From Saccharospirillum sp. (GTDB lineage: Bacteria; Pseudomonadota; Gammaproteobacteria; Pseudomonadales; Natronospirillaceae), in contig JAIUML010000035.1 of NCBI GenBank assembly GCA_022565595.1, positions 1 through 40,797 on the forward strand: a DNA stretch of 40,797 nucleotides. Reading direction: 5' to 3'. Made by a program: the position numbers and the translations under genes. This document shows, one piece after another, positions 1,242 to 26,068 of this stretch; within the stretch, counting starts at the first letter, position 1, and the number at the start of each line of letters is the position of its first letter. The notes beneath the pieces are model-generated. The model did not search any database and was not told the origin of the DNA. It saw only the letters and a list, made by a program, of their open reading frames with translations.

Positions 1242-1317
1242 GGGTCGAGTAGGCCGAGGGAACTACCCCCTCAGCCTCTCACAGAACCGTACGTGAACCT
1301 CTCGATTCATACGGCTC
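1242..1317 (-). ncRNA. Group II intron domains V and VI
   Basis: On the - strand, 1317 to 1284 form a 34-nt hairpin starting GAGCCGTATG and ending GTACGGTTC, the catalytic domain V fold and size. It is followed by a second G/C-rich hairpin (GGCTGAGGG paired with CCCTCGGCC) of domain VI, then the 3' splice junction. Intact domains V and VI suggest that the ribozyme is still competent. Confidence 0.85.
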
Positions 1318-1337
1318 TTCTTGCCTAACCGTTTCAC

Positions 1338-2564
1338 CTAACAATTTCGCCAGTGAGGGAAAGCATGAGGGTATCTATGTCTCATGCTGACTATTCTCCT
1401 GGCAGCCTGTATGATACTACTCAGCTTTTTGAACTTGGCTTTCGCCCAGCGACTTAAGCGCTTGTCGAAATGAAAGAGCACATTACGGATGATACTCTTG
1501 CCAAACAAACCATAATAGTTCAACCATGCTTGCAGGCGACTACGACTGTACTCTTGAATCACCGCAAGGTCTTTGTGCCGCCAATACCTCCAAGGCCAGC
1601 TGTTTATCGCAGACCTAAGTTTCTTGGCATTTACAGCACTGATCGCAGCCATGAAGTACAAGCCTTGCCTGCCGTCGCGAGTCTGTATCCAGCGCGGCCG
1701 GAATGTGTATCCCAAAAAGTCGAAAGTGACATTAGGGTAGTTACCGGTTTGATACCCACCTTTGCAGTATACGATCTTCGTCTTCTTCGGATGAAGTTGC
1801 AAGCCACAGTCCACAAAGCGTTGTTCCAAACACGCTCTGAGCCGATTGACCTCACGCTCACTGGCACAGTGACAAACAATATCATCGGCGTAACGCTCGA
1901 ATTGAATGCCGCCCCAGTGCCGCTCCACCCAAACATCAAACACGTAGTGCAAAAACAAGTTGGACAGCAAGGGGCTGATTACTCCCCCTTGCGGAACGCC
2001 TCGCTTGGGTACTTCGAATCGTCCATCCGGATGTCGAATTGGTGCTTCCAACCATCTCTGAATATAGAGCAAGTGCCAGGGCTCTTTTACATGACGACGT
2101 ACAGCTTTCATCAACAGATGATGGTCGATGCTGTCAAAGAAGCCTTTAATGTCCATATCCAGCACCCAGGCCCGCTTAAAACAGCGATCTTTTGCTTTCA
2201 GTAAAGCCTGATGGGCCGATCTCCCCGGCCGGTAGCCGTAGGAGTCCGGGTGAAAGTGCTTTTCGAGTTCCGGTTCTATGTGAAGCTTGACCACCATTTG
2301 CGCGACACGATCTGCTACCGTTGGTATACCCAACTTTCGGGCACTGCCATCGGGCTTACCAATTTCAACGCGTTTTACCGCTGGTGGCATATAGCTGCCG
2401 GAGGATAGACGATTCCAAAGCTTGTAGAGGTTGTTCTTCAGGTCTAATTCAAAAGCCACAAGGCTTTCTTCATCAACCCCAGCACCACCTTTGTTGGCCC
2501 TTACACGCTTATACGCCTCAACGACGTCGTGTTTTGAAAGGTAAAACGATTTTGCCTGCGTCAC
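1338..2564 (-). CDS. ltrA: Group IIC intron reverse transcriptase/maturase
   Basis: The 408-residue protein starts at GTG 2564, preceded by GGGAGGAG. An upstream in-frame TTG at 2591 has no comparable site. Reverse-transcriptase motifs appear in order: DMDIKGFFDSI (about 136-146), RGVPQGGVISPLL (about 188-200) and the catalytic YADD (225-228), then FDFLGY and a maturase (X) domain with a basic C-terminus. No HNH endonuclease domain follows, as is usual for class C introns. The protein copies the intron into new DNA sites and assists splicing. No stop codon or frameshift interrupts it, so it is probably functional. Confidence 0.93.
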   Translation of the reverse strand: MTQAKSFYLSKHDVVEAYKRVRANKGGAGVDEESLVAFELDLKNNLYKLWNRLSSGSYMPPAVKRVEIGKPDGSARKLGIPTVADRVAQMVVKLHIEPELEKHFHPDSYGYRPGRSAHQALLKAKDRCFKRAWVLDMDIKGFFDSIDHHLLMKAVRRHVKEPWHLLYIQRWLEAPIRHPDGRFEVPKRGVPQGGVISPLLSNLFLHYVFDVWVERHWGGIQFERYADDIVCHCASEREVNRLRACLEQRFVDCGLQLHPKKTKIVYCKGGYQTGNYPNVTFDFLGYTFRPRWIQTRDGRQGLYFMAAISAVNAKKLRSAINSWPWRYWRHKDLAVIQEYSRSRLQAWLNYYGLFGKSIIRNVLFHFDKRLSRWAKAKFKKLSSIIQAARRIVSMRHRYPHAFPHWRNC

Positions 2565-3092
2565 CCTGCTCCTCCCAGACCCGGTTGGCAAGGCTTCGCA
2601 AGCAAGGCAAGCTTCTGCCTTCGCTCCATTCCCATTACAGGAACTTCAACACTACTACGCAGAAGTCCGCCCCTGTGCTCTGCATTGGTACTCTCGCCTC
2701 GTGGGATTTCCACTTGGGCTTCTCCCTTGGCATCAGAACGACAGGTTCTCATGTTCCGTATCAAAGCCTGTTCTGGGTTCATGCCACCTCTATGCCGGCT
2801 GCCGAATGGTCCGTATTCCAGATCACGTCCAAACTCATCCCGAAGAGACGCTCATTCCTCGGTTTTGACAACATTTGTACATATCGACACCTCATCAGCG
2901 GTTCACTCTCGTTCATCTCCCCAGACCTTACCTGACAGATCCTCGCCTGCCTTTTCCCTATCGCTCACGACCAGCACTCTTAATACCAGCCGCATAGGGT
3001 GGTTTGATTTCAACATCTGGCTGTCGAAACCGAGGGGCCTACCCTCATCTTTGATACAGCAAGAAAGGCTATTGCCTTTCGTCATGACACAC

Positions 3093-21152: not shown

Positions 21153-22315
21153 GTGCTCGCCTCATGCCGCCCCAATAGACCCTGATAAAACAGCTCGTCG
21201 GTCACGATCTGGCAGGGTGCATCTGGCCACTCCACCAGTACCGGGTAACCGGTGACCTGACGAATGCGCATGGCATCGCGAAAGCCGCACTCGGGTGACA
21301 CCAGAGTCGGCTTGCTGGACAAATCATCCGGCGATGTCAGGGTTTCCCAACGCTGCCAGTCAACTGGCTTGCCCAGATGCAACAACTGACTTTGCTGAGG
21401 GTCAACGCTGTATTGCGCCAAAGCATCAATGGGCACTGGCTCAGCGTTACCGCCCTGCCCGGCCATGGGCTGACAGACATCCTGAACGCGCAACACATTC
21501 AACGGGTTGGTGTGGGCGACAAAGTCTTCCACATAGGGCGTTGCGGGTGACAGCACAATTTCGTGCGGCTTGCCTTGCTGCACGATGCAACCGTCTTTCA
21601 TGATGGCAATGGTGTTGCCGAGCTTCAGTGCTTCGTCCAGATCGTGGCTGACAAAAATAATGGTTTTTTGCAGCTTGGATTGCAGCGCCAGCAGTTCCTC
21701 CTGAAGCTGTTGACGGATCAATGGATCCAGCGCCGAGAACGGCTCGTCCATCAACAGAATGTCAGACTCTGTCGCCAGGGCTCGCGCCAGACCAACCCGC
21801 TGTTGCATACCACCCGAGAGCGCACTGGGTTTGTGATCGCGCCACTCGGTTAGCCCTACCAGCGCCAGTTGCTCATCGACTCGCCGCTTGATTTCCGCTT
21901 TGGGCAGTTTCTGGATGTCCAGTGCAAAGGCCACGTTCTCGGCCACCGTCAACCAGGGCATCAGTGCAAACTTCTGAAAGACCATGGCGATGCGCTTCAT
22001 GCAGAAAGAACGCTGCGTTTCGGCATTGGCCTCAAAAAAGTTCAGCGATTCGCCTTCATGCTCGATCAACACCTTGCCACGGGTAATGCGGTTCAGGCCA
22101 TTGACGCAGCGAATCAGGCTCGACTTGCCCGAGCCGGATAAGCCCATCAAGACACAGATCTCGCCTTTCTCTATCTTCAGATTGGCATCGCGCACACCCA
22201 ACACCAGGCCAGTCTCGTCGAGCAACTGATCACGGTCGTAGCCCTTGTCGAGCAAGGGCAAGGCACGTTCGGGTTTCTTGCCAAACACCAGGTCAACATT
22301 TTGAAATTCGATCAT
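21140..22315 (-). CDS. choV: Choline/betaine ABC importer ATPase
   Basis: The 391-residue protein has Walker A GLSGSGKSS, Q-loop VFQKFALMPW, signature LSGGMQQR, Walker B ILLMDEP and switch VSHD. The insertion at the N-terminus (LLDKGYDRDQLLDETGLVLGV) before the ATP-binding core is characteristic of quaternary-amine importers (ProV/OpuAA/ChoV). The C-terminal 110 residues replace typical CBS domains with a shorter regulatory region. Its ATG overlaps the permease stop by one base (TGATG), so the two are translationally coupled. With choW and choX upstream it feeds choline to the bet genes. Confidence 0.9.
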   Translation of the reverse strand: MIEFQNVDLVFGKKPERALPLLDKGYDRDQLLDETGLVLGVRDANLKIEKGEICVLMGLSGSGKSSLIRCVNGLNRITRGKVLIEHEGESLNFFEANAETQRSFCMKRIAMVFQKFALMPWLTVAENVAFALDIQKLPKAEIKRRVDEQLALVGLTEWRDHKPSALSGGMQQRVGLARALATESDILLMDEPFSALDPLIRQQLQEELLALQSKLQKTIIFVSHDLDEALKLGNTIAIMKDGCIVQQGKPHEIVLSPATPYVEDFVAHTNPLNVLRVQDVCQPMAGQGGNAEPVPIDALAQYSVDPQQSQLLHLGKPVDWQRWETLTSPDDLSSKPTLVSPECGFRDAMRIRQVTGYPVLVEWPDAPCQIVTDELFYQGLLGRHEASTQGS

Positions 22316-23145
22316 CAGCTGACCTCCTCTTTTTGTTTGAAGAAGCGATCGAGCATGATGGCCAGCAGCACAATGGCCAGGCCTGCTTCAAAACCACGAG
22401 CGATATCGACGGTGTTCAGTGCACGCACAACCGGGCGCCCCAGGCCATCCGCCCCCACAAGCGCAGCAATCACCACCATCGACAAGGACAACATGATGCA
22501 CTGAGTAATGCCCGCTGCAATGCTGGACGAAGCCGCCGGCAATTCAATGCGCCACAACATCTGCCGATGGGTGCAGCCAAAAGAACGGCCCGCTTCGCGC
22601 AGCTCCAGCGGTACCTGAGAAATACCAAGGTAGGTCAAACGAATGGGTGCGGCAATGGCAAAGACCACGGTCGCAATAAGGCCGGGCACCACACCCAGGC
22701 CAAAAAGCGTCAGCGTCGGGATCAAATAAACGAAGGTGGGCACCGTTTGCATCAAATCCAGCACGGGTCGCATCAGGGTAAACAACCAGGGCCGATGGGC
22801 CGCAGCAATGCCAATAGGCACTCCGATAACCACACACAACACCGTCGCCCAGACGACCATGACCAGGGTCTGCAAGGTATCGACCCAGTAACCCAGGTTC
22901 CAGATCAACAGGAACGACAGTACAGAAAACACAGCAAGCCCAGGGTTACGGCGAACGACCAGAACCAGAATACCGATCAGCACGATAAACAACCAGGGCG
23001 GGAACCAGAGCAAGGCGTCGGTCGCGATGCGAATCAGCCACTCCAGTGCGATGGCCAGGTTATCAAAGAACCAGGCGCCAGAATCCACCAACCAGTCGAG
23101 GAAACGCTCCATCGTTCTGCCCAGTGGGATTTTATAATTTTGCAT
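22315..23145 (-). CDS. choW: Choline/betaine ABC importer permease
   Basis: The 276-residue inner-membrane protein has about six membrane segments. The N-terminal half (FLDWLVDSGAWFFDNLAIAL) and the ProW-type loop LGISQVPLELREAGRSFGC, then MLWRIELPAASSSIAAGITQ, are typical of quaternary-amine permeases. It is coupled by a one-base overlap to choV. It is separated from choX by 252 bp that contain a 113-bp structured repeat, an unusual spacing for this operon. Confidence 0.9.
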   Translation of the reverse strand: MQNYKIPLGRTMERFLDWLVDSGAWFFDNLAIALEWLIRIATDALLWFPPWLFIVLIGILVLVVRRNPGLAVFSVLSFLLIWNLGYWVDTLQTLVMVVWATVLCVVIGVPIGIAAAHRPWLFTLMRPVLDLMQTVPTFVYLIPTLTLFGLGVVPGLIATVVFAIAAPIRLTYLGISQVPLELREAGRSFGCTHRQMLWRIELPAASSSIAAGITQCIMLSLSMVVIAALVGADGLGRPVVRALNTVDIARGFEAGLAIVLLAIMLDRFFKQKEEVS

Positions 23146-23240
23146 GGTGAAACAACTCTCAATGCCTCAGGCAAGATGTGCTGCATGAGGTTACACTTTC
23201 GGAAAGGTTCTCTGACTCAGTTGGAGACGGGTACGGGCTA

Positions 23241-23353
23241 GCGTCGGATGCCGGGGGTGCCCAGCAAAGGGGGTCCGCAGCAAGGATGCTGCGGTCCAGG
23301 CCCCAAGGACGGGTTTACGCCGACCTTGGATGGGCACCCCCGGTAGCCGACGC
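23241..23353 (-). repeat. 113-bp structured repeat, copy 1 (between choX and choW)
   Basis: A near-palindromic element with 21-base terminal arms (GTCGGATGCCGGGGGTGCCC and its partner) pairing at 19 of 21 positions, and two inner hairpins. Its - strand aligns without gaps to 24464-24576 at 87 of 113 positions by my count. Four stem pairs change on both sides between copies and keep pairing. It sits at the binding-protein/permease junction of the operon. Confidence 0.85.
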
Positions 23354-23397
23354 GGGTTTCTGCCACAGTTCTTACTTAAATCCCGAAACGTAACTGT

Positions 23398-24321
23398 TTA
23401 AAAAGCGGACTGAGCTACCGGTAAGGCTGCTTCGCCACTCACTGTTGTCACACCTTCCAGCCAGGCTTCCAGCACGTCCGGGTTGGCGCTGATCCAGTTG
23501 CGGGCGGCTGCATCCGGGTCTTGCCCTTCATCGAGAATCAAAGCCATGACTTCGTTTTCGATTTCCAGAGTGAACTTCAGATTGGTCAGGAAGCGACCGA
23601 CGTTGGGGCACTCATCGGCGTAGCCATGACGTACGTTGGTGTAGACGGTTGCGCCGCCCAGGTCCGGGCCGAAAAAGTCGTCACCACCTTCGAGATAGGC
23701 CAGCTCATAGTTGGCGTTCATCGGGTGTGGTTCCCAGCCGAGGAAAACGATCCACTCATTGCGGCGCACGGCTCGACCGACCTGAGACAGCATGCCCGCT
23801 TCGCTGGATTCGACCACGCGGAAGCCGTTCAACTCAAAGGCGTTCTGGTCGATCATGTCCTGGATGAGGCGGTTGCCGTCATTGCCGGGTTCGATGCCGT
23901 AAATACGGCTGGAGAATTGATCGGCATGCTTGGCAATGTCCTCGAACCGGGTGACACCCGCTTCATACACATATCGAGGGACGGCCAGGGTGTATTTGGC
24001 GCCCTCCAGGTTCTCGCCAAGGATGTCGACCGTACCGGCTTCGCGGTAGGGTGCTATGTCGGCTTCCATGGTTGGCATCCAGTTACCCAGGAATACATCG
24101 ATGTCGCCGTTGGCGAGTGACCGATAGGTGACGGGTACTGAGAGCAGTTGGGTGCGAGTTTCATAGCCCAGACTTTCCAGTACGACGGAAGCCATGGCGG
24201 TGGTGGCGGTGATGTCGGTCCAGCCTACGTCGGAAAAACGGACCTGTTCGCATTGATTGGCGTGTGCCAAGCTTGCGCTGCCGGCGATGACGCCAGCGAT
24301 CATCCAGTTCTTGAGTGTCAT
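23398..24321 (-). CDS. choX: Choline ABC importer substrate-binding protein
   Basis: The 307-residue protein has a signal peptide (MTLKNWMIAGVIAGSASLAHA) before NQCEQVRFSDVGWTDITATT. VFLGNWMPTMEADIAPYREAG and IVFLGWEPHPMNANYEL are diagnostic ChoX/ProX-like stretches carrying the Trp and Tyr residues of the aromatic box that holds trimethylammonium groups. It is the first gene of the choXWV operon. The leader (24322-24463) has two perfect small hairpins, GGGCGC/GCGCCC (24360-24374) and AGTCTG/CAGACT (24401-24417), then the second repeat copy. Confidence 0.92.
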   Translation of the reverse strand: MTLKNWMIAGVIAGSASLAHANQCEQVRFSDVGWTDITATTAMASVVLESLGYETRTQLLSVPVTYRSLANGDIDVFLGNWMPTMEADIAPYREAGTVDILGENLEGAKYTLAVPRYVYEAGVTRFEDIAKHADQFSSRIYGIEPGNDGNRLIQDMIDQNAFELNGFRVVESSEAGMLSQVGRAVRRNEWIVFLGWEPHPMNANYELAYLEGGDDFFGPDLGGATVYTNVRHGYADECPNVGRFLTNLKFTLEIENEVMALILDEGQDPDAAARNWISANPDVLEAWLEGVTTVSGEAALPVAQSAF

Positions 24322-24463
24322 ACAGGTTTCCTCTCTGTTTTGGTTAGCGCTTTCTCTGCGGGCGCGATGCGCCCTACTCTTTGGTTCACCTCGGTTATTC
24401 AGTCTGTTTGGCAGACTTGTCTTTCAAAAAATGCGGCCGGGTTCTACTCGTGCCCCATGGCCC

Positions 24464-24576
24464 GCGACGGCTACCGGTGATGCCTCTGCAGGGTCGGCGT
24501 GAATCCATCCATGGAGCCTAGACTGCAGCATCCCTGCTGCAGACTCCCCTGCTGAGGCATCACCGGCATCCGCCGC
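24464..24576 (+). repeat. 113-bp structured repeat, copy 2 (between betB and choX)
   Basis: This is the inverted second copy of the element at 23241-23353. Terminal arms GCGACGGCTACCGGTGATGC and its partner pair at 18 of 21 positions. The middle stem is CTGCAGCA/TGCTGCAG and the small stem TCCA/TGGA. The conserved segment GTCGGCGT stays outside the stems in both copies. It lies between the betB stop and the choX leader. Confidence 0.85.
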
Positions 24577-24607
24577 TCACTTTTGCACCAACTCAGAAAT
24601 TCGAGTT

Positions 24608-26068
24608 CTAAAACGGCGCCTCTACCGGGTTCATCCCCATGTAGATGGATTTAATCTGTGTATATTGCTGCAAAGTCGCGAGACCATTTTCTCGTCCAAT
24701 GCCGGATTGTTTGTAGCCACCAACGGGCATTTCTGCCGGTGAGTTGCCGTAGGCGTTGATCCAGCAGATGCCGGCCTGTAATTGGTGTATTACCCGGTGC
24801 GCTCGTTGCAGGTTTTGGGTGAATACGCCTGCGGCCAGGCCGTAGGGGGTGTCGTTGGCGCGGGCGATGACGTCGTCTTCGTTGTCGAATTTGAGGACGG
24901 ACATGACCGGGCCGAATATTTCTTCTCTGACCTGTGGCATGTCGTCGGTGCAGTCGGCAAAGACGGTGGGTTCGACGAAGTAGCCGCCTTCACAGCCCTT
25001 GGGTTTTACGCTGTTGCCGCCGGTGACGAGGCGAGCACCGCTGTTGTTGGCGGCGTCGATATAGCCCATGACCTTGTTCAGGTGGTCGGCGGAGATCAAT
25101 GCACCGATGTTGGTGTTGGGGTCCATGGGGTCGCCGATGACGGCGCCCTTTTCGGTGCGTTCTTTGACTCGGTCGAGAAAGGCGTCGTAGATGGCGTCGT
25201 GCACGAAGACGCGGGTGCCGTGGGTGCAGACTTCGCCCTGGGTGTAGAAGTTCGCCAACAAGGCGCCGCTGACGGCGTTGTCGAGGTCGGCGTCGTCGAA
25301 GATGATCAGCGGTGATTTGCCACCGAGTTCCATGGTGACTTCCTTCAGGGTGGCGGCGGAGTCGGCCATGACTTTTTTGCCGGTTCCGACTTCGCCGGTG
25401 AAGGAGACTTTGGCGATGCCCGGGTGGGCGGTGAGTGCCTGGCCGACGCGGTAGTCGCCCTGCACGATGTTGAAGACGTCGGGCGGCATGCCGGCTTCGA
25501 TAAATATTTCTGCCAGTCTGGCAGCGCCCATGGGGGTTTCTTCCGAGGGTTTGAATACCATGGCGTTGCCGCAGGCCAGTGCCGGTGCCGCTTTCCAGCA
25601 GGCGATCTGTAGGGGGTAGTTCCAGGCGCCAATGCCGGCGCAAACGCCCAGCGGCTCTCGCCGGGTGTAGTAGAAATCGCCACCGAGGTCCTGGGCTGTG
25701 CCTTCTATTGCGGCGGCAAGGCCGGCGTAGTATTCAATGCTGTCGGCGCCCGTTACTACATCGACTATGCTGGCTTCTTGCCAGGGCTTGCCGGTATCCA
25801 GCACTTCCGTTCGGGCCAGGTCGTCATTACGTTCACGCAACAAAGCGACCGCACGGTTGAGAATGCGGCCGCGCTCCATGCCACTCTTGGCAGACCATTC
25901 GGCGAAGCCCTGGCGGGCAGATTGTACGGCCTGATCCACCAGGCTGGCATCGGCCTGTTCGACCTGGTAGATCACCTGGCCGGTGGCGGGGTTGATGACA
26001 TCGAAGACGTCGCCGCTCTGGTTGCCGACGAATCGGCCTCCGATAAAGGATTGCAGCGGGGAAATCAT
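24608..26068 (-). CDS. betB: Betaine-aldehyde dehydrogenase
   Basis: The 486-residue enzyme has the aldehyde dehydrogenase core: cofactor motif [28 protein letters not shown], catalytic Glu in [12 protein letters not shown] and catalytic Cys in [20 protein letters not shown] and the C-terminal [16 protein letters not shown] fit BetB. It oxidises betaine aldehyde to glycine betaine with NAD(P). It follows betI after 25 bp. In the usual betIBA order, betA (choline dehydrogenase) would come next, but here choX follows. Confidence 0.93.

Follow-up and report, generated by a model that had tools for sequence, protein, structure and literature searches.

What are the two inverted 113-bp repeats that flank choX in this Saccharospirillum genome, and what keeps their structure? 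The window, by which we mean the whole stretch of 40,797 nucleotides that was analysed, holds one copy on either side of that gene. The explanation that we consider best, at a probability of roughly 55%, is that both are copies of a dispersed, MITE-like repeat built around a structured RNA of the TwoAYGGAY type, itself a putative ligand of CsrA/RsmA.

The repeats around choX

The initial annotation had aligned the minus strand of 23241-23353 without gaps to the plus strand of 24464-24576, and the identity that it had counted, 87 of 113 positions, proved correct. So did the four pairs that it had found changed on both sides with pairing kept: 15/99 (G-C to T-A), 17/97 (G-C to A-T), 61/78 and 41/52 (both C-G to T-A). 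On the consensus structure, 9 of the 39 pairs differ between the copies on both sides and stay paired and 29 are identical; none is changed on one side only, and one is broken in one copy. In this structure an outer stem of 25 pairs encloses hairpins 1 and 2, with GGA in each loop; hairpin 2 consists of a lower stem, GGC...GCC, and a short upper stem. The sequence GTCGGCGT, which had been described as conserved outside the stems, is present in both copies but does not lie wholly outside them, as the GGC of this sequence forms one arm of the lower stem in hairpin 2.

Copy 1 occupies 23240..23352 with its GGA strand on the plus strand, antisense to choX and choW, and copy 2 occupies 24465..24577 with its GGA strand on the minus strand, in the sense of betB and choX. 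Both form two hairpins within a long outer stem, an assignment based on fold and covariation as well as on scores of 124.7 and 132 bits, respectively, against a covariance model (R1) of which the two copies are themselves part. By sequence and motif scan, hairpin 1 was placed at 23275..23294 on the plus strand of copy 1 (CCGCAGCAAGGATGCTGCGG) and at 24523..24542 on the minus strand of copy 2 (CTGCAGCAGGGATGCTGCAG), in both cases with a loop that fits CANGGANG. Hairpin 2, for which the consensus structure is a further basis, lies at 23299..23321 on the plus strand (GGC-CCC-AAGGAC-GGG-TTTAC-GCC) and at 24496..24518 on the minus strand (GGC-TCC-ATGGAT-GGA-TTCAC-GCC), again with GGA in the loop.

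All three neighbouring genes are read from the minus strand. Between the copies lies choX, for a presumed choline-binding protein (23398..24321, an open reading frame of 307 aa, assigned by gene order); beyond copy 1 follows the candidate choW, for a permease (22315..23145, 276 aa, assigned by synteny). Both names come from the initial annotation. The frame beyond copy 2 (24608..26068, 486 aa, also placed by synteny) we take to be betB, for betaine aldehyde dehydrogenase. The gene order in relatives is betI-betB-...-choX-choW-choV.

For copy 1 the initial annotation had proposed a role like that of REP structures in transport operons, in which it would stabilise choX mRNA or lower choW expression. 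Its place between choX and choW would suit such a cis-acting element, as would its fold, which is stable on either strand, and any long intercistronic hairpin can affect mRNA ends. The case is weak, however, as copy 1 is missing from this place in two other Saccharospirillum: the choX-choW gap, 252 bp in the window with the element included, is 64 and 55 bp in those two, which lack it there. Moreover, relative to the operon the GGA strand of copy 1 is antisense, the genome has more than 140 other copies elsewhere, and the copies show no orientation bias to genes. Of the single copies between tandem genes, 26 are sense and 20 antisense (p = 0.46), and further counts on small samples gave no bias either; about half of any read-through transcripts would therefore carry the strand without GGA loops. 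We regard a cis-acting operon element as very improbable. A local effect of copy 1 on choX and choW is possible as a by-product of the dispersed element that we favour.

Other local roles fared no better as candidates. A terminator was rejected: by eye no T-run follows the element, and the two terminator-like sites that were found both lie away from the copies. A sigma-54-like spacing seen by eye in the 5' flank was dropped because it would put the start within the outer stem. In a weak promoter scan of 23100-24700 one site emerged, on the minus strand at 23162-23134, and neither copy has one upstream of its GGA strand.

At the other end of choX, Saccharospirillum M30B14 carries a copy between betA and choX (locus L069, 107 bits) in the same place and orientation as copy 2. 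By eye this copy is much less like copy 2 than are other copies of the host genome, and because those are so much more alike we did not adopt orthology of the two. In M30B14 a betA-type gene stands between betB and choX, and in others the space is wide enough for such a gene. Copy 2 lies at this place in the window instead (24464-24608), and no relative of betA was found within the window; deletion through recombination between copies is one possibility. Elsewhere in the window, the minus strand of 1244-3046 gives group II intron signals (RF01999, 106.7 bits; RF00029, 63 bits).

Copies and fold across Gammaproteobacteria

The initial annotation had named a lack of further copies as a result that would count against its structural reading. 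Further copies are numerous: 145 were collected in the host genome, at E <= 1e-8 and at least 51.7 bits, from 91 stretches. A DNA search with copy 2 had listed 60 matches there, some of which matched parts of the palindrome at a single place, and gave matches in 13 of 57 genomes, the host included. From 56 copies, 40 of them from the host and 16 from other genomes, we made the alignment A2 and from it R1, which finds at least 139 places in the host genome at E <= 0.01 among the best 150 of 1776 candidates, the ones that were scored. With the genes called by a codon-usage caller written for this analysis as reference, 134 of the 145 copies lie between genes and one overlaps a gene; the other 10 stand at a locus edge and were left unclassified, so that the intergenic share is 134 of 135 classifiable copies.

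The element extends well beyond this genome. Five relatives in the genus gave at least 146, 18, at least 150, at least 150 and 7 R1 matches, and 14 of 24 relatives have a match when the host is counted. In an evenly drawn sample of the class, searched at E <= 1e-6 with strict filters and with at most 13 best candidates scored per genome, 44 of 274 genomes, again counting the host, gave a match. The RNA core is thus common to genomes of many families of the Gammaproteobacteria. That the window repeats are copies of a dispersed structured repeat is close to certain.

Selection on structure, which the initial annotation had suggested from two copies, gains support from three alignments, in the sense that the structure is selected or otherwise maintained. 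In A2, from which the structure was itself derived before the alignment was scored against it, 96.6% of cells are paired (95.3% in the outer stem), double changes occur at 32 of 39 pairs, and the covariation score is 0.442, against 0.158 after shuffling and at most 0.093 when the partner column is slid. The 25 copies in the alignment A4 were drawn from 23 loci, and 21 copies come from genomes outside the order; the values for A4, which lean towards the model as the copies were fitted to R1, are 97.2% paired cells, double changes at 36 of 39 pairs and a covariation score of 0.999 against 0.209 shuffled. The same fold is thus kept by compensatory change in distant Gammaproteobacteria.

The third alignment comes from one genome, G144, in which the 31 best-scoring of 41 matches were examined; two antisense self-matches (L235 on the plus and L217 on the minus strand) were dropped from the 33 rows of its alignment, A5, before counting. 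The outer arms of these 31 copies are on average only 45% identical between copies, the most alike pair reaching 92%, yet 97.7% of outer-stem cells are paired, a value that falls to 54.8% when arms are exchanged between copies. Pairing has therefore been kept while the sequence turns over. Loci such as L217, L235 and L238 combine widely differing outer arms with near-perfect pairing. In this GC-rich genome, open reading frames were called over 10 of the 31 copies; we took the calls as probably spurious and for that reason left its gene context out of the analysis.

Which strand folds can be judged from the wobble pairs. On the GGA strand, G-U cells outnumber A-C cells by 81 to 6 in A2 (41 to 5 without one mostly G-U column), by 225 to 32 in the alignment of 145 copies (130 to 31 without the mostly G-U column), by 21 to 5 in A4 and by 24 to 5 in the outer stem of G144. 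When the structure is derived on the opposite strand the asymmetry is mirrored, with 36 A-C to 7 G-U. Counted by column, A2 has some G-U in 18 columns and some A-C in 4 (p = 0.004). The corresponding figures for the 145 copies are 20 to 10 over all helices (p = 0.10) and 18 to 3 in the outer stem alone (p = 0.0015, for a split picked after the data had been seen); it is in the outer stem that the excess is located, and the hairpins of these copies have none.

We read the G-U excess as folding of the GGA strand, whether as RNA or as single-stranded DNA. The latter is possible because G-T pairs in DNA are likewise more stable than A-C pairs; as the form in which the GGA strand acts, however, single-stranded DNA seems less likely to us than RNA, and the element probably works as RNA on this strand.

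A different origin of the paired changes needs no selection at all. Templated correction of one arm by the other during replication, a process known for quasipalindromes in bacteria, would keep palindromes perfect and so mimic compensatory change, and the arms in G144, near perfect although very different between copies, are what it would produce. It leaves unexplained, however, the preference for G-U over A-C, the near-invariant GGA loops and the unpaired bases that are invariant in A2, for example columns 38, 56, 63, 79 and 82. We therefore hold templated correction to be improbable.

GGA loops, CsrA/RsmA and TwoAYGGAY

The most constant parts of the element are its loops. In A2, GGA is present in loop 1 of 55 and loop 2 of all 56 copies, and the longer ANGGA in 47 and 56, respectively. 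Among the 123 host copies of at most 131 nt, 118 and 119 have GGA in the two hairpin windows, and in G144 every one of the 31 copies has it in both loops. At least two occurrences of CANGGANG are found in 80 of the 145 host copies, 24 of 25 in A4 and 29 of 31 in G144, but in 7 of 8000 mononucleotide shuffles; the other strand never has two. A longer motif, TACARGGATGT, occurs in 10 of 145, 7 of 25 and 2 of 31 copies, respectively, and never on the other strand. According to the consulted sections of PMC4347634, the consensus selected by CsrA in SELEX is RUACARGGAUGU with GGA in a hairpin loop. The paired GGA hairpin loops of the element fit this consensus site.

We give even chances that CsrA/RsmA would be the ligand. 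The distribution of csrA neither supports nor excludes such a ligand. The host genome has one csrA gene; in the class sample, csrA was matched in 40 of 44 carriers of the element and in 194 of 230 other genomes (p = 0.35), which is no association, and co-occurrence was accordingly dropped as support for the CsrA reading. The four carriers with no csrA match are G063, G124 and G155, which are 67-88% complete, and G250, which is 98% complete and whose lack of csrA is read from its absence among the csrA search matches.

The CsrA-sequestering regulatory RNAs CsrB, CsrC, RsmX, RsmY and RsmZ likewise have hairpins in pairs whose ANGGA loops fit the CsrA site. These are single loci with many sites and promoters of their own, whereas the element has two sites per copy and about 145 copies. 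We suggest that the GGA strand would act as RNA and that one CsrA/RsmA dimer could dock on its two GGA hairpins. Transcribed copies might then titrate CsrA in trans or bring it in cis to the transcript that carries them; since read-through at roughly half of the sites would yield the strand that lacks GGA loops, we find titration by the copies that are transcribed the simpler picture. The spread of the element would depend on a transposase provided in trans.

The initial annotation did not recognise the element as a named family, and the window copies indeed match none at Rfam thresholds; relatives, however, do match RF01731, the TwoAYGGAY family (clan CL00106). Like this RNA, the element has two hairpins with AYGGAY-like GGA loops within an enclosing outer stem, and the two are related and alike, yet the window copies match RF01731 neither at its gathering score of 43 bits nor at E values up to 10. 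In the host genome RF01731 gives three matches, the best at 37.8 bits and all below the cut-off; one copy of the element there scores 35.7 bits. R1, built largely from host copies, finds at least 139 places in the same genome, many more of its repeats than the Rfam model. Over its cut-off RF01731 was matched in 5 of 19 genomes. Of the 8 loci taken, 5 have an R1 match at the same place (L054, L055, L056, L057 and L059) and L052, L053 and L058 do not; among the 5 loci above the cut-off the count is 3. Among distant R1 loci, none of 15 (of 19 taken) reaches the gathering score of RF01731.

TwoAYGGAY is listed for gut, Gammaproteobacteria and Clostridiales in Table 1 of Weinberg et al. (PMC2864571), the part of that paper used here, and the available text of Gardner and Eldai (PMC4333381) reports it as proposed to bind CsrA. 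In these sources TwoAYGGAY figures either as an RNA whose function is unknown or as an sRNA proposed to bind CsrA, and not as a mobile repeat of high copy number; we met no description of it as such a repeat in the open-licence part of the literature. In our reading three entries that are otherwise kept separate come together, namely an Rfam motif without a known function, an RNA proposed to bind CsrA and a mobile repeat of high abundance.

The complementary strand is weakly like Ysr224 (RF02770), with 21.4 bits at 23268-23354 on the minus strand and 15.5 bits at 24460-24544 on the plus strand against a cut-off of 70; this sRNA family may overlap with a related element in antisense.

Ends, mobility and nested modules

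The evidence for mobility is clearest in G303, a genome from another family of the class with at least 144 R1 matches among the best 150 candidates, which were those scored. Complete units there run from CAGCAATTCCCA to TGGGAATTGCTG over 165-400 bp, with terminal inverted repeats and the RNA core inside. The unit table, for which lengths of 150-450 bp were accepted, has 25 rows, with L274 entered twice, and hence 24 distinct units. Of the 24, 16 show an exact target duplication of 9 bp, and with up to one mismatch allowed the number is 19; inspection by eye adds two units with 10-bp repeats, one exact and one with a single mismatch. The R1 core was found in 17 of the 24 units, 12 of which have the exact 9-bp duplication; the other seven contain long nested inserts and no R1 core, a core being seen in them by eye only. 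From 147 sites with the end pattern 20 regions were taken, and 16 of these yielded a unit of 214-400 bp; L262, L269, L279 and L280 yielded no complete one. No transposase was recognised in the regions that yielded a unit. Terminal inverted repeats and target-site duplication, the features that define a MITE, are both present in G303.

In the host genome the outer ends, CTCAAGTTTCGG...GTTGGCAC, occur at 8 places with at most three mismatches, against one place for the reversed control; they are decayed, and the host genome gave no established target duplication. Host copy pairs with cores 94% identical have flanks that are 42% identical upstream and 61% downstream, over a background of about 27%. 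This would fit a core preserved by selection or by conversion, or else a unit that extends little beyond its core. The initial annotation had also named, as a result that would count against its reading, copies explained as recent decayed insertions of one mobile element. This holds in part: the element is indeed of a mobile kind, and we think it very probable that it is mobile by descent, but the copies are not simply decayed, because structure and loops are intact while the flanks decay.

The element resembles bacterial MITEs such as ERIC, NEMIS and QMITE1/2, which are likewise short, non-coding and bounded by terminal inverted repeats and target duplications, ERIC and NEMIS being likened by description. 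Transcribed MITEs are on record, for example the QMITE sRNAs (PMC5896051; PMC10969869); the word CsrA occurs in neither paper. The element differs from MITEs with RNA products in that its RNA core spans many families. High copy number, intergenic location and head-to-head dimers also recall REP and REPIN sequences tagged with GTAG or CGTC, but the element measures 113 bp and has several helices, whereas a REP measures 20-40 bp. Stems of CGTC-REPs almost always begin with AT pairs (PMC3733652, in the part available); by eye those of the element do not. Also by eye, GTAG lies within the outer stem of many host copies, and CGTC precedes hairpin 1 in many distant ones. A REP mobilised by a RAYT was rejected as an identity: the single Y1 gene of the host, a RAYT-like transposase gene at L155 (G000:C10:3839-4171), is flanked by inverted repeats of the GGGTCAGAGTCATTGAT type, which are unrelated to the element, and no copy lies within the surrounding 3.3 kb.

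The main rival to our reading is a purely selfish DNA element whose fold and GGA loops serve mobility and have no function as RNA, the recognition target being a single-stranded hairpin or the terminal inverted repeats. To this account belong the terminal inverted repeats and 9-bp target duplications of G303, the high copy number, the lack of orientation bias to genes and of any csrA association, and the arrangement of close pairs: all 33 pairs of host copies less than 400 bp apart stand head to head, as REP dimers predominantly do (PMC3733652, same part). Recognition of double-stranded ends by a transposase, however, predicts neither a preference for G-U over A-C nor arms that are widely diverged and still paired. 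In G303 the terminal inverted repeats lie outside the RNA core, and it is the core that is common to distant lineages; in the host, a single Y1-type transposase gene was found, and the repeats around it are different ones, with no copy of the element beside it. We judge the purely selfish element a serious but minority possibility, and continue to prefer a MITE-like element with a structured RNA as its body.

A selfish repeat may in this way have sprinkled regulator sites over whole genomes. We propose tentatively, and with more doubt than belief, a transposable CsrA-binding RNA, that is, a MITE family that would carry a dimer-ready CsrA/RsmA site as conserved cargo and rewire or buffer the Csr network. 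Some Gammaproteobacteria would then possess well over a hundred dispersed CsrA sites, and if CsrA binds them, the site distribution of a global regulator would be set in part by a transposable element. If CsrA does not bind, one has to ask what makes a mobile element preserve an RNA-like fold and two near-invariant GGA loops across many families of the class.

The close pairs of the host genome are separated by gaps of 39-185 bp (for example at L022, L018 and L030), and no spacer shared among them was seen by eye. Recent inverted duplication was rejected as their origin, since the similarity between pair members equals that between random copies (0.598 against 0.598). The window copies, 1.1 kb apart, have the orientation opposite to that of these pairs. 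One head-to-head close pair each is listed in G144 and in genome G293; in G303 there is a same-strand pair at L265, with weaker matches in L262 and L264.

In some host copies, smaller modules with GGA hairpins of their own are nested in the loop of hairpin 1. Two types were distinguished by eye: one adds 51 nt in reverse orientation (L024:1985-2147, L027:1969-2132, L176:1858-2020 and others), and one adds 71 nt on the same strand (L022:300-483, L039:8670-8853). Similar modules in G303 are, by eye, oppositely oriented. As these and the 51-nt type of the host run against the main element, their GGA loops are not simply an addition to the same RNA. A 400-bp unit of G303 with the same ends (L265:2302-2701) contains a row of nested modules, and its GGA-rich strand, which is opposite to that of the main element, has 13 GGA, many of them in hairpin loops.
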